DNA of 10,000 nucleotides from Kiritimatiellota bacterium (lineage in GTDB: Bacteria; Verrucomicrobiota; Kiritimatiellia; JAAZAB01), in contig VSJD01000188.1 in the NCBI GenBank assembly GCA_008636095.1, forward strand, positions 1 to 10,000. Direction: 5' to 3'. This document shows, in pieces, positions 1 through 10,000 of the stretch. The stretch's first letter is position 1; every line of letters begins with the position of its first letter. Under the pieces are notes generated by a model. The model worked only from the letters and a program-made list of their open reading frames with translations. It did not search any database and was not told the DNA's origin. The position numbers and the translations under genes are program-made.

Positions 1-3000
1 AGCGAAAAGGTGCCCGTCAAGGCCGGGCTTGCGGCAAGCTGCACCGTGGAGTATATCGTTGACACTGCAAACATGTGCGCCGGGGGAGTGTTCGCCGCTC
101 CCGGCGACCCGACGGAAACCAAACTGGTCAGCGCCGGTTTCAATTTAAAGGCCGGCGAATATCATTTTAAAGCCGATATTAAAAGCGATTACAAGTGTGC
201 CGCTGACAAGCCATATAATTTCTTCCTGGTTCACAGCGCGGACAAAGGCTATGAAGCGATCCCGCAGGCGGAAGCTCCCCTGAAAAGCGACGGCTGGGTG
301 CGGGTGCAGGGTGACATCCTGGCGGACAAGGATCGGATATCCGAAATCTGGCTGGTCAAATGGGCTCAAAGGCAAATCACGGGCGAGTTGCTCGTGGACA
401 ATATTGAAATCATCGACAAAAAAACCGGTCAAAATTTGCTCCCTAACGGGGATTTTCAGAATGGGCCATTCGGTTGGTCGACTTGCACCCCGCTGTGCAA
501 AGGTTTTGGCAATGGCGCGGAAAAGATCACTTATAGTTACTCCATGGCCACCGGGCAATCAGCGCTATACCAATCCCCTCTTTTCTGCCAGTCCCTGATA
601 AACGAAAATCCACGTATATCCAGTCAATTTGTCAATTTCGCCGACAAAGGCGCATACCGGGTGGATGAATTGTTTTTATCAGTGGATGCTCCTGAACGAT
701 TAAGCCTGGTGCTGAAGAGCGACAAGGCGGATGGGGCGCAGAAAGTTTATTGCGAGATAAAAATGCCGGATTCCTGCCGCATCTGTTTCCCGGTGGAACA
801 GTCGTCGGCGGTGGAGCCCGGGCGCGTCGAAGAAAAAATTTTCAGCGAAAACGGCGAGGTTACGAGAAGTTACGTGATGGAATTCGATAGCGGCGCCCTT
901 ACGCACGCCAAGGACGCATCGTGGAAATACGTGGCGATCCCCGTGGTTTTCGAGGCGACCGCATTGGAGGCGGGCAAAGAGAGCGGGACGATACTGTACA
1001 AGGCCTGGATCGACGAAAAAGAGAAAGAGGGTGACTATCACAAGCTGAAGATAGGAATCCTCCCTCCGCTTGCCGGCAAGCAGCCCGGATCTTTGCCGCT
1101 TATCATTTGGGCTTATCCAAGCATGAATGAATTCCACATGCTGAGCAATGACCAGCAGGAAAAATTCATTTCTAAAATGGCGCACGCGGGTTTCAATTAC
1201 GCCGCGATTAAAAAAAGTGCGGTGGAAAAGTTTGCCGGGAAGGGAATCAAGGGGTTCACGCTTTTGCCGACGGTATCGATCGCGGGTAATTTCCCTTGTG
1301 TCAAAGAATTTATAAAAGAACATCCCGAAGCTGCCGCCCGGTATCCCGATGGCAAGGCGGCCGAAGCAATTGATCCTGCGTACCTGCTGGAGGAAAATTG
1401 TCTTTTTCAGCAGCCCATGAAAGAAGTGTTCCGGCAATACGTCCAGGCGTTTCCGGCCCAGCTGAACTGGGATTACGAATTCAATGTCACGCCGAATGGG
1501 AAGAACGATAGAACGCAAATCGGATTTTCCGACCGGAACATGGAAATGTTCCGAAGGCATGCCAATATTCCCGAAACTGAGCCGCTCGACGCCAAGGCGA
1601 TATCCAGCCGCTTTGCCGACAAATGGATTGACTTCCGGTGCTGGCAGAACGCCCGCACGGCGGGCTTGTACCGGAAGCTCATCAAGGAAATCAAACCAGA
1701 TTGCATCTTCTCGTTCTACAGCGGCTATCCGCCTGATAGCGCGACGCACTACGGGGCGAAGTGGGAGTACCTGAGCAAGGAGGTTGATCTCCCCATGTGC
1801 GGTTACGGCGGCAACAACAAGGTCATGATGAATTCAATTACGCAAAGTTATTTTAACGCCGGGCTGCTCATCATGGCGTATGCGGACCAGAACCCGCTGG
1901 AAAACACGCTGGTCAATTTCCTCGCCGAGGCAGGCAGCTATATGACGTATATCCATTTTGTCATTGACGGGCGTTTTTTCCAGGCCGCGTCGCGCGCGTC
2001 GGCGATCGCCGCGGATTTCGAGGAATTCTTCCTGAATTTGAAAGGAAACCGGCGCGACGAACTCGTCTGCGGGGACGACGCGAAGCCCAGGCAGGACGTC
2101 AAGGTGATAGTCAACGGCGACAGGCGGCTGCTCCTGGTTTTCAACTATTCGGCGGAAGATAAATTGATTCATCTCAGGAACAAAGATGTCCCACCCGGCT
2201 TCGTTGGGGTTGACCACGACACGAAGGAGCTGATCAGAGGGGTGGAATCCATGGAGCTGCGCGTAGCCCCGTGGAAGGTTAAAGCTGTCTACCTTTGCCC
2301 TGAAAAGGAAACTGCGGTCAGCTTGAATATCGCACCGATCCCGGAAGATATGCCTAATTACAGGGGCAGGGTCGCGCGCTGGCGCGACGGCCAATCTCAT
2401 ATGAAAAAGTACGAGCTGAAATATGGCGGTGTACCGGTCCTCGATGAATCGGCAGCCGTGACCAATATGCCGGGCTGCTGTTTCCAGTTTCCCGGGGAGG
2501 CGGCCAAGTTTGACCCTGTTTACTGGCAGGTGCGGGCAGTTGACCTTAAGGGCAAAAACAAGGGGCCATGGTCCAAGGTGTCCTCAATGAAGCTCAATGG
2601 CTCAACCCCCTTTTATCGCCATGCGCAGACGGAGCATGACCCTTTTAGCGGATTTGGCTTGTACTGGGAGAAGCATTCATGGTGTGCCGGCGGCGCGCTG
2701 AACATACTTGAAAAGGACTATGCGGTTACGCATGGCGGCGAGTATTCGTTGAAATGTAAAAATCTTTTTATTGACGGCTGTTCCTTCTGGAGAAATCCGC
2801 GCACGCCGGGGAGTGCCACAAAGCTGCCGAAAGTTGCGGCTGGCGAGAAGTACGTTTTGAGCTCATGGCTGAAGACCGAGGGCCCGGAAGTCCGTTCTTA
2901 CGTCGCAGTCGATATCCTTAATGGCGAAGCAAAGGGGATTAAATCATTCAAGTCCGCAGAGATCGCGGGAAGTTCGGATTGGAGCAAAGTCGATCTGGAA

Positions 3001-3102
3001 ATTGCCGTTCCGAAAGATGCGGACACTTTCCGGGTTTCATTCTGGGTCAACGGAAAGGGGACGGGTTGGTGCGGGGATATGAAACTCGCGAAAATACAAT
3101 GA
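1..3102 (+). CDS. Large multidomain glycoside-hydrolase-like protein, 5' end outside window
   Basis: The frame is open to base 1, so the true start and any signal peptide lie upstream; the GTG at base 10 is only the first in-window start codon, and residue numbers here count from it. Residues about 1-140 look like a carbohydrate-binding beta-sandwich ending in LLVDNIEII. NLLPNGDF near 142 is a typical opening of a CBM4/9-like module. Residues about 363-677 look like a TIM barrel: IIWAYPSMNEF strand, NWDYEFN with acidic residues D488 and E490, and an FSFYSGYPP strand. A small beta domain follows (about 700-757), then an FN3-like piece ending WQVRAVDLKGKNKGPWS (about 770-865), then a C-terminal binding-type domain with HGGEYSLKC and SSWLKTEG. 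A role in cleaving or binding polysaccharide outside the cytoplasm is inferred from this layout; I cannot assign a GH family or substrate. D488 and E490 are only candidate catalytic acids. It ends in TGA with a GC-rich hairpin 12 bases later. Confidence 0.85.
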   Translation, partial: SEKVPVKAGLAASCTVEYIVDTANMCAGGVFAAPGDPTETKLVSAGFNLKAGEYHFKADIKSDYKCAADKPYNFFLVHSADKGYEAIPQAEAPLKSDGWVRVQGDILADKDRISEIWLVKWAQRQITGELLVDNIEIIDKKTGQNLLPNGDFQNGPFGWSTCTPLCKGFGNGAEKITYSYSMATGQSALYQSPLFCQSLINENPRISSQFVNFADKGAYRVDELFLSVDAPERLSLVLKSDKADGAQKVYCEIKMPDSCRICFPVEQSSAVEPGRVEEKIFSENGEVTRSYVMEFDSGALTHAKDASWKYVAIPVVFEATALEAGKESGTILYKAWIDEKEKEGDYHKLKIGILPPLAGKQPGSLPLIIWAYPSMNEFHMLSNDQQEKFISKMAHAGFNYAAIKKSAVEKFAGKGIKGFTLLPTVSIAGNFPCVKEFIKEHPEAAARYPDGKAAEAIDPAYLLEENCLFQQPMKEVFRQYVQAFPAQLNWDYEFNVTPNGKNDRTQIGFSDRNMEMFRRHANIPETEPLDAKAISSRFADKWIDFRCWQNARTAGLYRKLIKEIKPDCIFSFYSGYPPDSATHYGAKWEYLSKEVDLPMCGYGGNNKVMMNSITQSYFNAGLLIMAYADQNPLENTLVNFLAEAGSYMTYIHFVIDGRFFQAASRASAIAADFEEFFLNLKGNRRDELVCGDDAKPRQDVKVIVNGDRRLLLVFNYSAEDKLIHLRNKDVPPGFVGVDHDTKELIRGVESMELRVAPWKVKAVYLCPEKETAVSLNIAPIPEDMPNYRGRVARWRDGQSHMKKYELKYGGVPVLDESAAVTNMPGCCFQFPGEAAKFDPVYWQVRAVDLKGKNKGPWSKVSSMKLNGSTPFYRHAQTEHDPFSGFGLYWEKHSWCAGGALNILEKDYAVTHGGEYSLKCKNLFIDGCSFWRNPRTPGSATKLPKVAAGEKYVLSSWLKTEGPEVRSYVAVDILNGEAKGIKSFKSAEIAGSSDWSKVDLEIAVPKDADTFRVSFWVNGKGTGWCGDMKLAKIQ

Positions 3103-3150: not shown

Positions 3151-3240
3151 TCAGTCCTTGTCCTCTTCGACTGTCTCCCTGTCAACGGGCAACAACTTCT
3201 TCCTTTGCGTCTTAACACCTTTGCGATAGATTCTGCGCAT
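3151..3240 (-). CDS. Possible 29-residue basic/acidic peptide
   Basis: Reading leftwards from ATG at 3240-3238 to TGA at 3153-3151 gives a 29-residue peptide with a strongly basic first half (MRRIYRKGVKTQRKK) and an acidic tail (ETVEEDKD). It fills most of the gap before the Deg-type protease gene, and its start codon overlaps that gene's start codon on the other strand. I see no Shine-Dalgarno sequence upstream and recognise no family. An open frame of this length can easily arise by chance, so this is a weak call, listed because the charge pattern is unusual and nothing else explains the gap. Confidence 0.2.
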   Translation of the reverse strand: MRRIYRKGVKTQRKKLLPVDRETVEEDKD

Positions 3241-4747
3241 GCAAGCGATACTACGCTACGGGATATTGCTGGTAATAACGTGGGTTGCCGTCACGGTTGG
3301 GCTCAATGCACAGGCGGCGTGGTTGGGTAAGCATGGGTTCCGGGAGTCGGTGGTCAAGGTCTATACCACCATTCAGCGCGAGGACTATGCCTGGCCCTGG
3401 CAACCGGCGGCGCCATCCTCGGCCAGCGGCTCCGGATTCATTATCGGCAAAAAACGGATCCTGACCAATGCCCACGTCGTCTCCGATGCGCGGTTCATCG
3501 AAGTCCAGCGCGAAGGCCAGTCGCGCCGCTACCCAGCCGAAGTGGCCTTTATCGGCCATGACTGCGACCTGGCAGTCCTGACAGTCCGCGATCCCGAATT
3601 CTACGCCGAAGCCGTACCCATGGAGCTGGGTGATGGCCTGCCGGATCTGAACGAGGAAGTAATCGCGTTAGGCTACCCGATGGGCGGCGAACGGCTGTCG
3701 TTGACTAAGGGTGTGGTTTCGCGGATTGATTACCAGCTCTACACCCACAGCCAGGTGGATAGCCATCTCGTGATCCAGGTGGATGCCGCCATCAATCCGG
3801 GCAACAGCGGCGGCCCAGTGCTGTTCAAGGGCCGCGTGGTGGGCGTCGCGTTTCAGGGTATTCCCAACGCCCAGAACCTGGGCTATGCCATCCCCCTGCC
3901 GGTTATCCGGCATTTTCTGACGGACATTGAAGACGGCGTGTATGATGGTTACCCAGAACCGGGCATCTCCCACATGGAAACTCCGAACCCGGCCATGCGG
4001 CGGAACCTCGGTTTGCCGGGAAACGACACGGGCGTGGTTATTTCCTTCATTGACCCGTTTGGTTGTGCCATCGGTATCCTGCAGACCAACGACACATTGC
4101 TGGCCATTGACGGCCACGCCATCGCCAGCGATGGCACGGTCCGCCTGGACGGCCAGACGATTGAATACGTGGAACTCCTGGAGCGCAAGCAATGCGGCGA
4201 AACTGTGGCATTCAAGGTCTGGCGCAATGGGCAAGCCCTGGATATTTCCGTGCCCCTGGCCAACCGCAACGATCCTTTTGCATTCCGGTATGCCTACGAA
4301 CGCCGCCCGGAATATTTCATCATGGGTGGGCTGGTCTTTGCACCGCTAAGCCGCGGCCTGCTGATGGCCGCCGGCGGGGAACTGAACCAGTGGTATGCCC
4401 ATCATCTGTTGTATTACGCCACCTTCGCCAAGGTGGATGGCTTGATTAGCGGGCGCGACCAGTTTGTCGTTTTACGCAACCGGCTGGCCCATCCGGTGAA
4501 TGCGTACGATGAGCCCTACTTGAATAAAATCGTGCGTGAAATCAATGGACTTCCCATCCGCAACATGCAGGACCTGCCCTCCGCGTTCAGTAACCCGACT
4601 AATGGTTTTCACGTTATTCGTTTTTTAGATGATCCGGACCCCTTGATCCTAGACGCCACCGAAACAGCCAATGCTGACCCCGTCATTCAGCGCCGCTACA
4701 ATATTCCGGAGATCTCCCATATTGAACCGGCGGGGGTGCGGAAATGA
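3239..4747 (+). CDS. Exported Deg/HtrA-type serine protease, DEG9-like architecture
   Basis: A 502-residue protein. Residues 1-26 form a signal peptide: short n-region, hydrophobic core ILLVITWVAVTVGL, AQA cleavage motif. It should therefore act in the periplasm or outside the cell. The trypsin-like domain (about 33-230) has a complete triad: H79 in LTNAHVV, D110 in HDCDLAVLTV and S190 in NPGNSGGPV. A PDZ domain covers about 240-340, and residues about 355-502 form a second, degenerate PDZ-like domain beginning RRPEYFIMGGLVF. From memory, this order and the YFI-GG/AG-F-F and LD-T-A-...-IP signatures resemble plant DEG9 more than bacterial DegP or DegS. The expected role is ATP-independent cleavage of damaged envelope proteins. 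The ATG start is chosen because it gives a well-formed signal peptide; no Shine-Dalgarno is obvious. Its TGA stop overlaps an ATG in the frame of the downstream paralogue, suggesting one transcript. Confidence 0.9.
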   Translation: MQAILRYGILLVITWVAVTVGLNAQAAWLGKHGFRESVVKVYTTIQREDYAWPWQPAAPSSASGSGFIIGKKRILTNAHVVSDARFIEVQREGQSRRYPAEVAFIGHDCDLAVLTVRDPEFYAEAVPMELGDGLPDLNEEVIALGYPMGGERLSLTKGVVSRIDYQLYTHSQVDSHLVIQVDAAINPGNSGGPVLFKGRVVGVAFQGIPNAQNLGYAIPLPVIRHFLTDIEDGVYDGYPEPGISHMETPNPAMRRNLGLPGNDTGVVISFIDPFGCAIGILQTNDTLLAIDGHAIASDGTVRLDGQTIEYVELLERKQCGETVAFKVWRNGQALDISVPLANRNDPFAFRYAYERRPEYFIMGGLVFAPLSRGLLMAAGGELNQWYAHHLLYYATFAKVDGLISGRDQFVVLRNRLAHPVNAYDEPYLNKIVREINGLPIRNMQDLPSAFSNPTNGFHVIRFLDDPDPLILDATETANADPVIQRRYNIPEISHIEPAGVRK

Positions 4748-4763
4748 GAAATGTTTTGAAAAT

Positions 4764-4826
4764 AGCCGACATAAAGTCGGCTCTACATGTAGGCATTCCC
4801 AATGTAGAGCCGGTTTTATACCGGCT
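4764..4826. repeat. Double-hairpin palindromic element between the two Deg-like genes
   Basis: Two arms, 4764-4788 and 4802-4826, are inverted copies of each other at 21 of 25 positions, separated by 13 bases. Each arm contains its own hairpin: AGCCGAC-ATAAA-GTCGGCT (4764-4782) and AGCCGGT-TTTAT-ACCGGCT (4808-4826), both with 7-bp stems and 5-base loops. The four arm differences fall in paired stem positions and preserve the local pairing, so the small hairpins seem to be what is maintained. A direct repeat of GCATTTT follows at 4829-4842. The size and shape suit a REP- or MITE-like mobile palindrome. It lies in the same open frame as the downstream gene and so creates an apparent N-terminal extension. 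Confidence 0.75.
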
Positions 4827-4863
4827 ATGCATTTTGCATTTTCACGGCCTCCGAATGCCCCTG

Positions 4864-6384
4864 ATGAAATTGACGGCATGTTCGATTGTTCTGTTGACGG
4901 GCCTACTTTTCGCCCTGCCCGGGCCGACGGTTGCGGCGCCGGCGCCGGACTACGACGCCAGCGTGGTGGAGATCACAGTCACCTATCAGGACTATGACCC
5001 CCAGATTCCCTGGCGTAAAAAAGCATCCGCTCGCCGCCAGGGTTACGGTGTAGTCATCAGCGCGGGCCAAGTCCTGACCACTGAGGACCTGGTGCGCAAC
5101 CAGACCCAGGTGGAACTACGCCGGGCTAAGAGTGGCGCCAAGCTGGCGGCCACCGTGCTGGAAGCCGATGACCAGCTTAACACCGCACTCCTGACATTCA
5201 GTAATAGTGTGACCGCCAATGCGGTTGCGGCCGCTAACGCGCTCCTTCCCATGTCACTGGCCGACACCATCCGGCGCGACGACCGGCTGACCATTGTTAA
5301 ACTGGAGAAGACCGGCGAATTTCAAACCAGCGAGGGACGGGTGGTGGAGTTATCCGCCTCCGCATCGCCCCGCCCGCTGGCGCTCAAGGTACTGACGCAA
5401 TCGAGTATTGACGGCAACGGGACACCGGCGTTGCTCAACGGACAGTTGGCGGGTATCAGCGTGGCGTACGACAAAAAAACGCAGACGGGCTTGTTTATCC
5501 CCTGCACCACCCTTCGCCGGTTTATTACAGATGCCAATTCCCCGCCATATAAAGGACTGGCCTGGGCCGGTTTCCAATTTGAGCCCTTATTGGATCCAGT
5601 CAAACGCCGCTATCTGGGCGTGACCGAAACAAATGGCGGCATCGTGGTCACAAAAACAACGCCCGGCTCCGGCGCCGCCGAGGTTCTGCAAGCAGGCGAC
5701 GTCATCACGGCCTGGGACGGGATCCCGATTGACGCCCAGGGTTATTACACCGATACGGACTTCGGCCGCTTGCGCCTGGCATATCTCATTGGCGGCCGCC
5801 GCGCGGCGGGGGACAGCGTTCCGGTTGCAATCGTGCGGGACCGGAAGCCGCGCACCGTGCAAGTCTTACTTAAGCGTCAGCGTGATCGCGACGAGTTTAT
5901 TCCGGAAGCCATCTCGCCTGGGCGACCAGGCTCCGCCGGAGCGCTACGCCCAGGCGAGAGCGTGGAATACCTGGTGGAGGGCGGGCTGGTACTGCGAGAA
6001 TTGACGGGAAACTACCTGCGCGCCTCCGGCGAGAATTGGAAACTCCAGATGAACCCGCGCCTGGTGTATTACTATTTGCACCAGGATAAATTCGCGCGCC
6101 AGCCGGGGGACCACGTGGTTCTGCTTTCCATGGTCCTGCCGGATTCCATCAATATCGGCTATCAGGAATTCCACGACCAGGCAGTCACCGCCGTCAATGG
6201 CCAGCCTATCCGAAACATGGCCGATGTTTTTCGGGTCGTGGATAGCGCCGGCGGCTTGCGACGTGTGACACTCCTGGGATGCGCCGTGGACTTGGCACTG
6301 GATAAAGCTGCCCTTACCGAGGCCAACCGGCGGATCGCCGAGCAATACCGCATCCCGCGCTTGCGCTACCAGAAGGAACGGTAA
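4864..6384 (+). CDS. Exported HtrA/Deg-family pseudoprotease paralogue
   Basis: A second Deg-like protein, about 506 residues from ATG 4864. The frame is open back to an ATG at 4744 that overlaps the previous stop, but the extra 40 residues are largely encoded by the palindrome; ATG 4864 (or 4855) puts MKLTACSIVLLTGLLFALPG at the N-terminus as a normal signal peptide. The choice is uncertain because neither 4855 nor 4864 has a clear Shine-Dalgarno, while a G-rich run precedes 4744. Aligning with the upstream paralogue (numbering from 4864), catalytic His becomes D75 (LTTEDLV), Asp becomes N106 (QLNTALLTF) and Ser becomes N185 (DGNGTPALL), so no serine-protease triad remains. The fold around these sites, a PDZ domain (about 232-338) and a second PDZ-like domain with INIGYQEFHDQAV and VNGQPIRNM (about 365-500) are retained. 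Likely a non-catalytic partner, substrate-binding subunit or regulator of the protease in the envelope (inference). An in-frame palindrome encodes part of the inter-domain linker. Confidence 0.88.
   Translation: MKLTACSIVLLTGLLFALPGPTVAAPAPDYDASVVEITVTYQDYDPQIPWRKKASARRQGYGVVISAGQVLTTEDLVRNQTQVELRRAKSGAKLAATVLEADDQLNTALLTFSNSVTANAVAAANALLPMSLADTIRRDDRLTIVKLEKTGEFQTSEGRVVELSASASPRPLALKVLTQSSIDGNGTPALLNGQLAGISVAYDKKTQTGLFIPCTTLRRFITDANSPPYKGLAWAGFQFEPLLDPVKRRYLGVTETNGGIVVTKTTPGSGAAEVLQAGDVITAWDGIPIDAQGYYTDTDFGRLRLAYLIGGRRAAGDSVPVAIVRDRKPRTVQVLLKRQRDRDEFIPEAISPGRPGSAGALRPGESVEYLVEGGLVLRELTGNYLRASGENWKLQMNPRLVYYYLHQDKFARQPGDHVVLLSMVLPDSINIGYQEFHDQAVTAVNGQPIRNMADVFRVVDSAGGLRRVTLLGCAVDLALDKAALTEANRRIAEQYRIPRLRYQKER
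5912..5959. repeat. Perfect nested palindrome inside the pseudoprotease gene
   Basis: Bases 5912-5924 (TCTCGCCTGGGCG) are exactly inverted at 5947-5959, a 13-bp perfect stem. Between them GCTCC (5930-5934) and GGAGC (5938-5942) form a second stem around GCC. The 48-base element keeps the reading frame and encodes a Gly/Pro/Ala-rich stretch, SPGRPGSAGALRPGE, at the junction between the PDZ domain and the second PDZ-like domain. The active paralogue lacks it there and reads straight through with FRYAYERRPEYF. This looks like in-frame insertion of a REP-like palindrome at a tolerant linker. Confidence 0.7.
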
Positions 6385-7168: not shown

Positions 7169-8509
7169 TCACACCACACCCTGGGCGAGCATGGCATTGG
7201 CGATCTTACGGAAGCCGGCAATATTGGCGCCCTTGACGTAGTTGACAAAATCATTTTCCCGCCCGTATTGCACGCACGACTCGTGGATGGCGCGCATGAT
7301 TTCACACAGGCGCTTGTCCACTTCCTCCTTGGGCCAGCTCAGGTGCATCGCGTTCTGCGACATTTCCAGTCCGGAGGTGGCCACGCCGCCGGCATTGGCC
7401 GCCTTGCCGGGACCATATAGGATTTTGGCTTTTAAAAACACGTCCACCCCTTCGGGCTCGGTCGGCATGTTGGCCCCTTCGCAGACGCAGATACAGCCGT
7501 TTTTCACCAATGCGCGGGCATCCGCCGCCGTGATTTCGTTCTGCGTGGCGGAGGGAAACGCCAGGTCACATTTCACTGACCAGGGCCGCTGATCGGGCAG
7601 GAACTTGGCGCCCGGGAATTTTGCGGCATATTCCTGAATCCGGCCGCGGCGTTCATTTTTCAATTCCATCACCCAGGCCAGCTTTTCCTCGCCGATCCCG
7701 GCCGCATCCACAATCGTACCGGCGGAATCGGAGAGCGTTATCACCTTGGCGCCCAGGTGCATAAGTTTTTCAACAGTGTACTGCGCCACGTTGCCCGCGC
7801 CGGAGACTGCCGCTGTTTTGCCCTCGAAGTTTTGTTTGCGCGTCGCCAGCATATCCTGGGCAAAATAAACGGCGCCATAACCCGTTGCCTCCGGCCGCAT
7901 CAGCGAGCCGCCCCAACTGACGCCCTTGCCGGTAAGCACGCCCGTGAATTCATTGCGAAGCTTCTTATACTGGCCAAAGAGGTAGCCGATCTCGCGTCCC
8001 CCTACCCCGATGTCACCGGCCGGCACGTCGGTATTCGGACCGATATGACGGAAGAGTTCACTCATGAACGCCTGGCAGAACCGCATGACCTCCATGTCGC
8101 TCTTGCCTTTGGGATCGAAATCGGAGCCACCCTTACCCCCGCCCATGGGCAGAGTGGTTAAGGCATTCTTGAAACACTGCTCGAACGCCAGGAATTTGAG
8201 GATGCTGAGCGTCACGGAAGCATGCAACCGCAGACCGCCCTTGTAGGGGCCCAGGGCCGAATTCATCTCGATCCGCCAACCGCGGTTGACGTGAATTTCC
8301 CCGCGGTCATCCACCCAGGGCACCCGGAAGATGATGATCCGCTCCGGCTCCACCAGCCGCTCGAGGATTTTTTCATGGGCGTAGGCCGGGGTACTCTCCA
8401 CCAGCGGCATCAGGCTTTCGGCAACTTCCCGCACCGCCTGGTGAAATTCCGGTTCACCCGGATTGCGCGCCACGACCTGGTCCATAAATGCTTCCACGGA
8501 TTTGCTCAT
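7169..8509 (-). CDS. gdhA: NADP-type glutamate dehydrogenase
   Basis: A 446-residue protein, the full length of hexameric bacterial GdhA (E. coli about 447), and similar to it from end to end from memory, including the shared C-terminus AMLAQGV. It catalyses reversible reductive amination of 2-oxoglutarate with ammonium to L-glutamate in the cytoplasm, in this subfamily usually with NADPH. The N-terminal catalytic domain has ERLVEPER, the substrate-binding segment GPYKGGLR (K90), the catalytic lysine in PMGGGKGGSDFDPKGKS (K126) and PAGDIGVGGRE (D166). The Rossmann domain has SGAGNVAQ (236-243) followed by SDSAGT (260-265), and GKAANAGGVATSGLEMSQN (368-386) closes the active site. The ATG start has AGGAG 10 bases upstream. 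A near-consensus promoter lies about 50-75 bases upstream, so it is probably transcribed separately from nifJ. NADP rather than NAD preference is inferred from subfamily similarity. Confidence 0.97.
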   Translation of the reverse strand: MSKSVEAFMDQVVARNPGEPEFHQAVREVAESLMPLVESTPAYAHEKILERLVEPERIIIFRVPWVDDRGEIHVNRGWRIEMNSALGPYKGGLRLHASVTLSILKFLAFEQCFKNALTTLPMGGGKGGSDFDPKGKSDMEVMRFCQAFMSELFRHIGPNTDVPAGDIGVGGREIGYLFGQYKKLRNEFTGVLTGKGVSWGGSLMRPEATGYGAVYFAQDMLATRKQNFEGKTAAVSGAGNVAQYTVEKLMHLGAKVITLSDSAGTIVDAAGIGEEKLAWVMELKNERRGRIQEYAAKFPGAKFLPDQRPWSVKCDLAFPSATQNEITAADARALVKNGCICVCEGANMPTEPEGVDVFLKAKILYGPGKAANAGGVATSGLEMSQNAMHLSWPKEEVDKRLCEIMRAIHESCVQYGRENDFVNYVKGANIAGFRKIANAMLAQGVV

Positions 8510-8728: not shown

Positions 8729-10000
8729 TTATGCTTTCTGTTCCGGTGCCGCTGGCGCGGGCGATGTGACCGGTGCCGTCGGTGCGGCCGTCGCCGCCGG
8801 AGGAATTTCACCGGTGCAGGGCGGCAGACCGGCCAGTTTCTGGTAGAGATCCGCCCGGGCCGCTATGAGTTTATCGGCCATTTCCATGAGCCGCTTGGCG
8901 TTCTCCGGATAACTCTGCTTCAACACGCGGAACCGGTTTTCCTTCATCACGGATTCGCTGTATTTCTCAACCGGCATTTTGCTGTCCAGTGTCAGGGGGT
9001 TCTTGCCCTGCTTGGTCAGTTCCGGGTTGTAGCGATAGAGCGGGAAACGCCCCGATTGCACGGCTTCCTTCTGGGCCGTCAGACCATTGGTCATGTTGAT
9101 GCCGTGCGCAATGCAGTGCGAATAGGCAATGATGATCGAAGGCCCCTCGTAGGCGTCGGCCTCGGCAAAGGCCCGCACAGTCTGGTTCGGATTGGCGCCC
9201 AGCGCGACGGTCGCAACATAGATATTGCCGTAGGTCATACAGATCATGCCAAGATCCTTCTTCATCAGCGGCTTGCCCGCCATGGCAAACTTGGCCACCG
9301 CGCCCATGGGGGTGGACTTGGAAGCCTGGCCGCCCGTGTTGGAATAGACTTCGGTATCCAGCACGAGGACATTTACCTTGCGGCCGGAGGCCAGCACATG
9401 GTCGAGTCCGCCATAGCCGATATCATACGCCCAGCCATCGCCACCGACGATCCAGACCGATTTTTTCACAAGGTAATCGGACACGGAAAGCATTTGCCTG
9501 GCCCACTCATTGTTGGTGCATTTGGCCAGCATGTCTTTCAGCTTCGCCACCCGCGCGCGTTGTTCCTCAATGCCGACGGGCGTGGACTGGTCGGCATTGC
9601 GCAGTTCGCCAAAGAGCGGCTTCAGGTCGCCGCAGGCGGCGCACTCGCATCCTTTATCCATCAGTTCCAGGGCAACCTGGCGGAACTTGTCCACCCCCAA
9701 CCGCATGCCGTAACCGAATTCGGCATTGTCCTCAAACAGCGAGTTGGACCAGGCCGGCCCGCGTCCATCCTCGCGCGTCGTGTAAGGTGTCGTCGGCAGG
9801 TTGCCGCCGTAGATGGACGAGCATCCCGTGGCATTGGCAATCAGCGCCCGGTCGCCGAAGAGCTGGGTGAGCAGTTTGATGTAGGGCGTCTCGCCACAGC
9901 CCGCGCAGGCGCCAGAGAATTCGAACATGGCGCGCACAAACTGGCTCCCCTTGACCGTGGCACGGTTGTAAAGTTTCGGATCCATGTCCGGAATGTCCAT
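8729..10000 (-). CDS. nifJ: Pyruvate:ferredoxin (flavodoxin) oxidoreductase, C-terminal part
   Basis: The last 423 residues of a single-chain PFOR (whole enzymes are about 1200 residues); the rest lies beyond the window, and the ATG at the edge is internal. The enzyme oxidatively decarboxylates pyruvate with CoA to acetyl-CoA and CO2 and reduces ferredoxin or flavodoxin, in the cytoplasm of anaerobes. This part is the thiamine-diphosphate domain: FSGACAGCGETPY (C32, C35), NATGCSSIYGG (C60) and YSHCIAHGI (C296), which correspond to the four ligands of the proximal 4Fe-4S cluster in the Desulfovibrio africanus enzyme. GGDGWAYDIGYGGLDHVLASG with DTEVYSNTGGQASKSTPMGA (187-234) binds TPP-Mg. Residues 118-123 add a CECAAC cluster I do not expect in the family. 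The C-terminus is a Pro/Ala-rich tail (about 400-423) ending PEQKA, with no sign of a D. africanus-type C-terminal extension. Oxygen sensitivity is likely and fits an anaerobic host. Confidence 0.95.
   Translation of the reverse strand: MDIPDMDPKLYNRATVKGSQFVRAMFEFSGACAGCGETPYIKLLTQLFGDRALIANATGCSSIYGGNLPTTPYTTREDGRGPAWSNSLFEDNAEFGYGMRLGVDKFRQVALELMDKGCECAACGDLKPLFGELRNADQSTPVGIEEQRARVAKLKDMLAKCTNNEWARQMLSVSDYLVKKSVWIVGGDGWAYDIGYGGLDHVLASGRKVNVLVLDTEVYSNTGGQASKSTPMGAVAKFAMAGKPLMKKDLGMICMTYGNIYVATVALGANPNQTVRAFAEADAYEGPSIIIAYSHCIAHGINMTNGLTAQKEAVQSGRFPLYRYNPELTKQGKNPLTLDSKMPVEKYSESVMKENRFRVLKQSYPENAKRLMEMADKLIAARADLYQKLAGLPPCTGEIPPAATAAPTAPVTSPAPAAPEQKA

Follow-up and report, generated by a model that had tools for sequence, protein, structure and literature searches.

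The window analyzed here is a stretch of 10,000 nucleotides (positions 1 to 10,000 of contig VSJD01000188.1, our contig C130) from the draft genome of a Kiritimatiellota bacterium (GenBank assembly GCA_008636095.1; 3.8 Mb, 87% complete). It carries two adjacent genes on the forward strand that encode relatives of the plant Deg2 and Deg9 proteases: A, an active-type serine protease bearing the His-Asp-Ser triad, and P, a paralog without it (Table 1). Across the phylum, relatives of P have lost the triad, are maintained by purifying selection, and for the most part lie directly downstream of A. We propose that P is probably a partner of A that has no catalytic role and works through its PDZ domains.

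Table 1. Positions of genes A and P and of their features in the window.
Feature	Position	Strand	Basis
Gene A, active-type Deg2/Deg9-like serine protease, 502 aa	3239..4747	+	Trypsin_2 + PDZ + PDZ_3
A N-terminal hydrophobic signal-like segment, residues 1-26	3239..3316	+	by eye; AlphaFold2 helix 2-31
A catalytic His79 (TNAHVV)	3473..3475	+	alignment
A catalytic Asp110 (CDLAVL)	3566..3568	+	alignment
A catalytic Ser190 (GNSGGP)	3806..3808	+	alignment
A C-terminal PDZ_3, residues 352-491	4292..4711	+	Pfam PF17815, 74.9 bits
Gene P as listed open reading frame, triad-less paralog, 546 aa from ATG 4744; probable start 4864 (506 aa) or 4855	4744..6384	+	
Dispersed hairpin repeat between A and P, arms 4762-4788 and 4802-4828	4762..4828	+	
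P degenerate protease domain, residues 70-264	4951..5535	+	Pfam Trypsin_2, 30.8 bits; AlphaFold2
P Asp115 at the His position (TTEDLVRN)	5086..5088	+	alignment
P Asn146 at the Asp position	5179..5181	+	alignment
P Asn225 at the Ser position	5416..5418	+	alignment
P PDZ1, residues 265-385, with P-specific loop D330-G333-Y335-D337-G341	5536..5898	+	Pfam, AlphaFold2, conservation
P C-terminal PDZ_3, residues 407-539	5962..6360	+	Pfam PF17815, 86.4 bits

Both proteins show the Deg2/Deg9 layout, in which PDZ1 and PDZ_3 follow the protease domain, and both match the Pfam families Trypsin_2, PDZ, and PDZ_3, with PDZ_3 scoring higher in P (86.4 bits) than in A (74.9 bits). The nearest solved structures to A are those of plant Deg2 and Deg9 (E 6e-82 to a Deg2/Deg9 chimera), and Deg2/Deg9 entries also hold the top Foldseek ranks for its AlphaFold2 model, which has a mean predicted local distance difference test score (pLDDT) of 89.4. 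Given its triad, A is predicted to be proteolytically active. P aligns with A by BLASTP over 487 columns at 24% identity (E 2e-30), with H79/D110/S190 of A paired with D115/N146/N225 of P. An earlier note, made from the letters of the window alone, had described two neighboring reading frames of like layout, the replacement of His, Asp, and Ser by Asp, Asn, and Asn, and the retention of INIGY and VNGxPIRN stretches; each of these readings is borne out, and the INIGY form recurs in plant Deg2/Deg9.

P combines the three-domain Deg2/Deg9 fold with loss of the triad. Its best solved relatives are again Deg2/Deg9 (E 5.7e-34), its AlphaFold2 model has a mean pLDDT of 87.8, and Foldseek places Deg2/Deg9 first, with template modeling scores of 0.76-0.77 normalized by query and 0.89-0.90 by target (4fln/5ilb). 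Based on these confident models and top-ranking matches, P is most likely a folded pseudoprotease rather than a broken gene. Its relatives in the databases are labeled Kiritimatiellota, Kiritimatiellae, Lentisphaerae, or Verrucomicrobia/Verrucomicrobiota bacterium (one just "bacterium"), and where the protein is named it is called a trypsin-like peptidase, an S1-C subfamily serine protease, or a hypothetical protein; the first two of these names mislead. Judging by eye from their hydrophobic N-termini, A and P would both be exported to the periplasm.

The first codon of the listed P frame, which overlaps the end of A by 4 bp, is unlikely to be the true start. Confidence in the model is low there (pLDDT below 50 for most of residues 1-38), this part of the frame contains a hairpin repeat whose 27-nt arms are 85% complementary, and the length of the database copy P0001, 506 aa, fits a start at ATG 4864 followed by a signal-like segment; together these make ATG 4744 doubtful, and P probably begins at 4864. 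Alignments span no more than 94% of the listed frame in 68 of 70 database homologs; against the later start, the alignment with the homolog P0017 takes in the entire listed frame. The repeat is dispersed: a DNA query of 4760-4845 found 22 matching stretches in the genome, several of which are half-repeats or both strands of one place. Translational coupling of P to A through the 4-bp overlap is unsupported in the window, since the 5' part of the P frame is repeat sequence.

Absence of the catalytic triad in relatives of P

The triad positions were compared in 114 P and 133 A sequences, counting L032 and L033, which duplicate G003 and G001; the A sequence taken from each genome was the best-scoring one and not always the neighbor of P. 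Truncation has removed the His and Asp sites from two P rows, and the Ser site too from one of these, leaving 112 readable. Not one of these keeps His-Asp-Ser, whereas all 131 readable A rows do (the other 2 of the 133 are truncated there). Single residues survive sporadically in P, His in 6 rows, Ser in 3, and both His and Asp in 3. The Asp position holds Asn in 83 rows, Gly in 18, Asp in 10, and Ala in 1; the His position holds D, E, N, or Q in 73 of 112; and the Ser position is mostly F, A, E, Y, or W, with 17 different residues in all. Inactivation itself is therefore conserved in P, most often with Asn replacing Asp. The exact Asp/Asn/Asn set of the window is carried by 15 of 70 database homologs and by 1 of the 114 aligned rows, and was rejected as a conserved signature.

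These substitutions bear on two ways in which P could still have a chemistry of its own. One might suppose that P still catalyzes a reaction at a shifted or non-canonical site, as the frequent Asn at the Asp position and the near invariance of D142 (97%), four residues before that position, could be taken to suggest. The diversity at the nucleophile position, where F, Y, or W stands in 42 of the 113 rows with a residue there, speaks against it, and we regard continued catalysis as very improbable. Alternatively, the protease shell may have been repurposed, for example for metal binding, with A kept nearby by history. There is precedent in the magnetosome pseudoprotease MamO, which binds metal in its protease domain (PMC4794232), and the prevalence of D, E, N, or Q at the His position of P is compatible with such a site. 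Yet the residues at the three triad positions differ between families, and no His is found among the P residues conserved at 80% or more, the MamO metal-site positions not having been mapped onto P. We consider repurposing improbable, if slightly less so than catalysis by a shifted site.

Selection and the distribution of constraint within P

Is P retained for a function, as the earlier note had proposed, suggesting that the ratio of nonsynonymous to synonymous rates (omega) be estimated? Against L032, the nearest relative with both genes among those examined, P has an omega of 0.133 and A one of 0.108; by domain, P gives 0.135 for the protease domain, 0.129 for PDZ1, and 0.115 for PDZ_3. Against L033 the values are 0.166 for P and 0.125 for A. 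Twenty genome pairs were also hand-picked, with some genomes recurring among them; two in which the synonymous divergence (dS) of P is saturated were left out, and in the 18 usable pairs, several with dS above 1, omega for P does not exceed 0.245. Three pairs from a genus in which A and P lie apart (described below) gave 0.098, 0.323, and 0.090 for P, the first and third of these with dS above 2. P is under purifying selection, rather than the relaxed selection that the earlier note had named as counter-evidence. A selected role is supported by this result.

That P could be a decaying, functionless duplicate would be in keeping with the loss of all three catalytic residues and with a protease domain that has diverged faster than that of A. 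Low omega, including in the unlinked genus, reading frames that stay open, and retention throughout the phylum led us to reject decay, which we regard as hardly credible. An apparent sign of disruption, in-frame TAG stops flagged in P of three genomes of family f54, dissolves by coordinates in G419, where the stop is the terminal one at the end of the match; the stops in the other two genomes are presumably terminal as well.

Constraint is unevenly spread along P. Over 109 pairs (two of them duplicates), the ratio of P to A identity is 0.52 for the protease domain, 0.90 for PDZ1, and 1.01 for PDZ_3; the protease domain of P has thus diverged about twice as fast as that of A, whereas its PDZ domains have kept A's pace. 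This pattern suggests that P shed the catalysis-related constraint on its protease domain and kept that on its two C-terminal domains. In the PDZ1 loop of P, D330 (95%), G333 (99%), Y335 (81%), D337 (85%), and G341 (96%) are conserved, and G333 alone shares A's majority residue. Near the beginning of the protease domain, P89-W90 is conserved at 99% in P and 97% in A.

Linkage, distribution, and origin of the pair

Profile searches gave matches in 115 of 345 genomes of the class and 152 of 387 of the phylum, 51 being common to both lists. Stretches with A or P were examined from 134 genomes, chosen mostly for a high P score, so the division into 112 P-bearing and 22 A-only genomes (the duplicates L032 and L033 left out of the former) is no measure of prevalence. 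In 107 of the 112, A and P are adjacent and co-directional, a set that spans 34 families, and A lies upstream in the linked pairs; the apparent reversal in G552 proved to be an artefact of a long shadow frame, and its coordinates put A upstream. The same arrangement is seen by profile searches in other classes of the phylum. In a first survey of 58 genomes including the source genome, close A copies (>50% identity) were found in 17, with P adjoining in 15; in G027, one part of P lies next to A at the end of a contig and the rest on a different contig, and A of G004 halts at a contig end. The syntenic pair that the earlier note had anticipated is accordingly real and widespread, although linkage is not strict and the Asp/Asn/Asn set that was to accompany it is not conserved.

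Unlinked copies of both genes are kept in G513, G488, and G506, which belong to one genus, and in G515; in G513, A and P are about 1.56 Mb apart on a single contig. The genus of the first three offers a natural test of whether linkage of A and P matters. In G112, P sits at a contig edge and an A-like match lies elsewhere. No genome among the 112 with P lacks an A-like gene, a case in which the earlier note would have seen evidence against a partnership, yet A occurs without P in 22 of the 134 genomes. At least 1 kb without P follows A in 19 of these 22; in the remaining three (G004, G018, and G138), less than 150 bp of sequence follows A, and a neighboring P could be missing. In the A-only genomes of the class, A is mostly just about 40% identical to A of the window.

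These distributions also bear on whether P works with A at all. P may be an independent periplasmic chaperone, scaffold, or substrate receptor that shares regulation, and perhaps substrates, with A and does not bind it. The genomes that keep the genes apart would be expected under this explanation, as would the constraint that the PDZ domains of P maintain on their own account and the PDZ1 loop motif that is not seen in A. The dependence of P on A runs in one direction, though, and is expected more of a partner than of an independent protein. We therefore hold independence to be unlikely, while giving it more weight than any other alternative to a partnership.

Does the conserved unit extend beyond the two genes? 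In 67 P-bearing stretches of at least 8.5 kb (67 genomes), A is present in 63, representing 16 of 17 families, the exceptions being the four unlinked genomes. The next most widespread neighbor family occurs in 9 of the 67 stretches and 4 of the 17 families, so a wider operon was rejected; neighbors were clustered by BLASTP (1e-8, coverage >50%), and very divergent ones could escape. The A–P pair is thus the conserved unit, and its context points to no pathway. Natural A–P fusions were not found in the examined loci: four open reading frames of more than 850 aa in two genomes match both profiles, and do so over the same region.

A quick tree of 105 sequences (52 A and 53 P, chosen from 172) places A and P on opposite sides of a branch with support 100, with three P rows on long branches. 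One ancient duplication fits this split best, and the simplest account is that a single duplication and the loss of the triad both predate the separation of the sampled lineages. Judged by eye, the two sides agree in how several families group (f51 with f56, f61, f57, f76, and subgroups of f54), and identities between genomes correlate between A and P at 0.86-0.88 per domain, as they would for any vertically inherited pair. The A-only lineages, including L144, L145, and L146, form an A subclade of their own. When the tree is rooted on P, nine A-only rows make up one of the two first A branches, which would mean that P was lost there, although with P branches this long the lineages may instead have split off earlier. 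Met stands at F205 in 18 of the 22 A-only proteins and Leu at H176 in 17 (numbering of A in the window), differences that may mark changes going with the possession of P.

Elsewhere in the window, positions 1-3102 encode a large protein cut off at the 5' end, with a weak CBM_4_9 match below the cut-off. Downstream of the pair, on the reverse strand, 7169-8509 encodes a Glu/Leu/Phe/Val-type dehydrogenase by Pfam, probably a glutamate dehydrogenase, and 8729-10000 the end of a thiamine-pyrophosphate enzyme by Pfam, which we take to be possibly a pyruvate:ferredoxin oxidoreductase.

A proposed role for P and its relation to known systems

The pairing of a live with a dead HtrA-type protease is, as a kind, known from magnetosomes and, in fused form, from plant Deg7. 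In magnetotactic bacteria, the HtrA protease MamE is accompanied by the pseudoprotease MamO, encoded on the same island and needed for MamE activity, which it promotes non-catalytically (PMC4794232). P resembles MamO in being paired with an active-type HtrA protease. Unlike MamO, which has a TauE-like transporter domain, P has PDZ_3 in that place, and unlike MamE and MamO, A and P share the Deg2/Deg9 three-domain layout; a single split covers the whole set in our tree, whereas the magnetosome pseudoproteases reportedly arose separately in three taxa of magnetotactic bacteria (PMC4794232). AtDeg7 likewise keeps active and inactive protease domains together, the dead one reportedly acting in trimerization, but does so within one large protein with four PDZ domains (PMC3473262), where A and P are two genes and two proteins. 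In layout and fold, and as their best matches in sequence and structure, A and P are closest to plant Deg2 and Deg9 (PDB 4fln, 5il9), from which P departs in lacking the triad. The plant paralogs Deg5 and Deg8 offer a further parallel, forming hetero-oligomers (PMC4877387); both keep their triads (PMC3473262), so that no pseudoprotease is involved.

In conjunction with the pattern of constraint, the precedents of MamO, AtDeg7, and Deg2 make a non-catalytic partner working through its PDZ domains the best explanation of P, and one that we hold with moderate confidence. We propose the following model. An ancient tandem duplication would have given rise to P before the sampled lineages of the phylum separated. 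A would do the cutting, while P would retain the chymotrypsin-like shell as a scaffold, with its PDZ1 and PDZ_3 domains co-assembling with A, most likely in mixed rings or with a ring of A docked on a ring of P. Homotrimers are the building blocks of Deg proteases, and in Deg2 two of them are joined into a hexamer by the PDZ2 domain, the substrate being bound by PDZ1 (PMC4877387); docking of a P ring is modeled on this stacking. P could then gate A, feed it, or anchor it. A regular expression picked out a lipobox-like N-terminus in 19 of the 28 P proteins of family f54 (e.g., L136, 7087-8667) and in none of the family's A proteins; there P may be a lipoprotein and A not, and P may anchor A to the membrane. 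More specifically, it is conceivable, and we advance this only tentatively, that the pair forms an ancient, phylum-wide two-component Deg machine, a mixed A–P cage whose pseudoprotease subunit would provide PDZ-based substrate gating or membrane anchoring.

Several considerations weigh against a partnership of this kind. Physical contact in an A–P complex, the ratio of its subunits, and the effect of P on A, be it activation, restraint, or targeting, are all inferred, and the hetero-oligomer subunit, substrate adaptor, and inhibitor that the earlier note had suggested are candidate roles. The authors of PMC4794232 could not detect a physical interaction between MamE and MamO, which also favors an independent P; moreover, activation of MamE needed the TauE-like domain of MamO (PMC4794232), and P has no such Pfam match. 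The 22 genomes with A and no P, 19 of them with ample sequence downstream, indicate that an A-type protease can work alone, and the two genes can be unlinked. Omega for P lies above that for A in 16 of the 18 usable pairs, and the faster divergence of the P protease domain could mean that P no longer fits into A rings. Finally, stable co-inheritance of neighbors can reflect shared regulation rather than contact.

A non-catalytic partner acting through its PDZ domains nevertheless remains our preferred explanation. Searches of an open-licence library, which misses most subscription journals, turned up no description of a phylum-wide, live–dead pair of Deg2/Deg9 type with separate genes of the same architecture, and six protease words are absent from the main text, supplements not covered, of a paper on the essential genes of Verrucomicrobium spinosum (PMC12283558). 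What sets the A–P pair apart is that it is old, consists of separate genes of the same architecture, and extends over 34 families of one phylum. Given this spread, what a pseudoprotease subunit does within a periplasmic protease could be tested in culturable bacteria.

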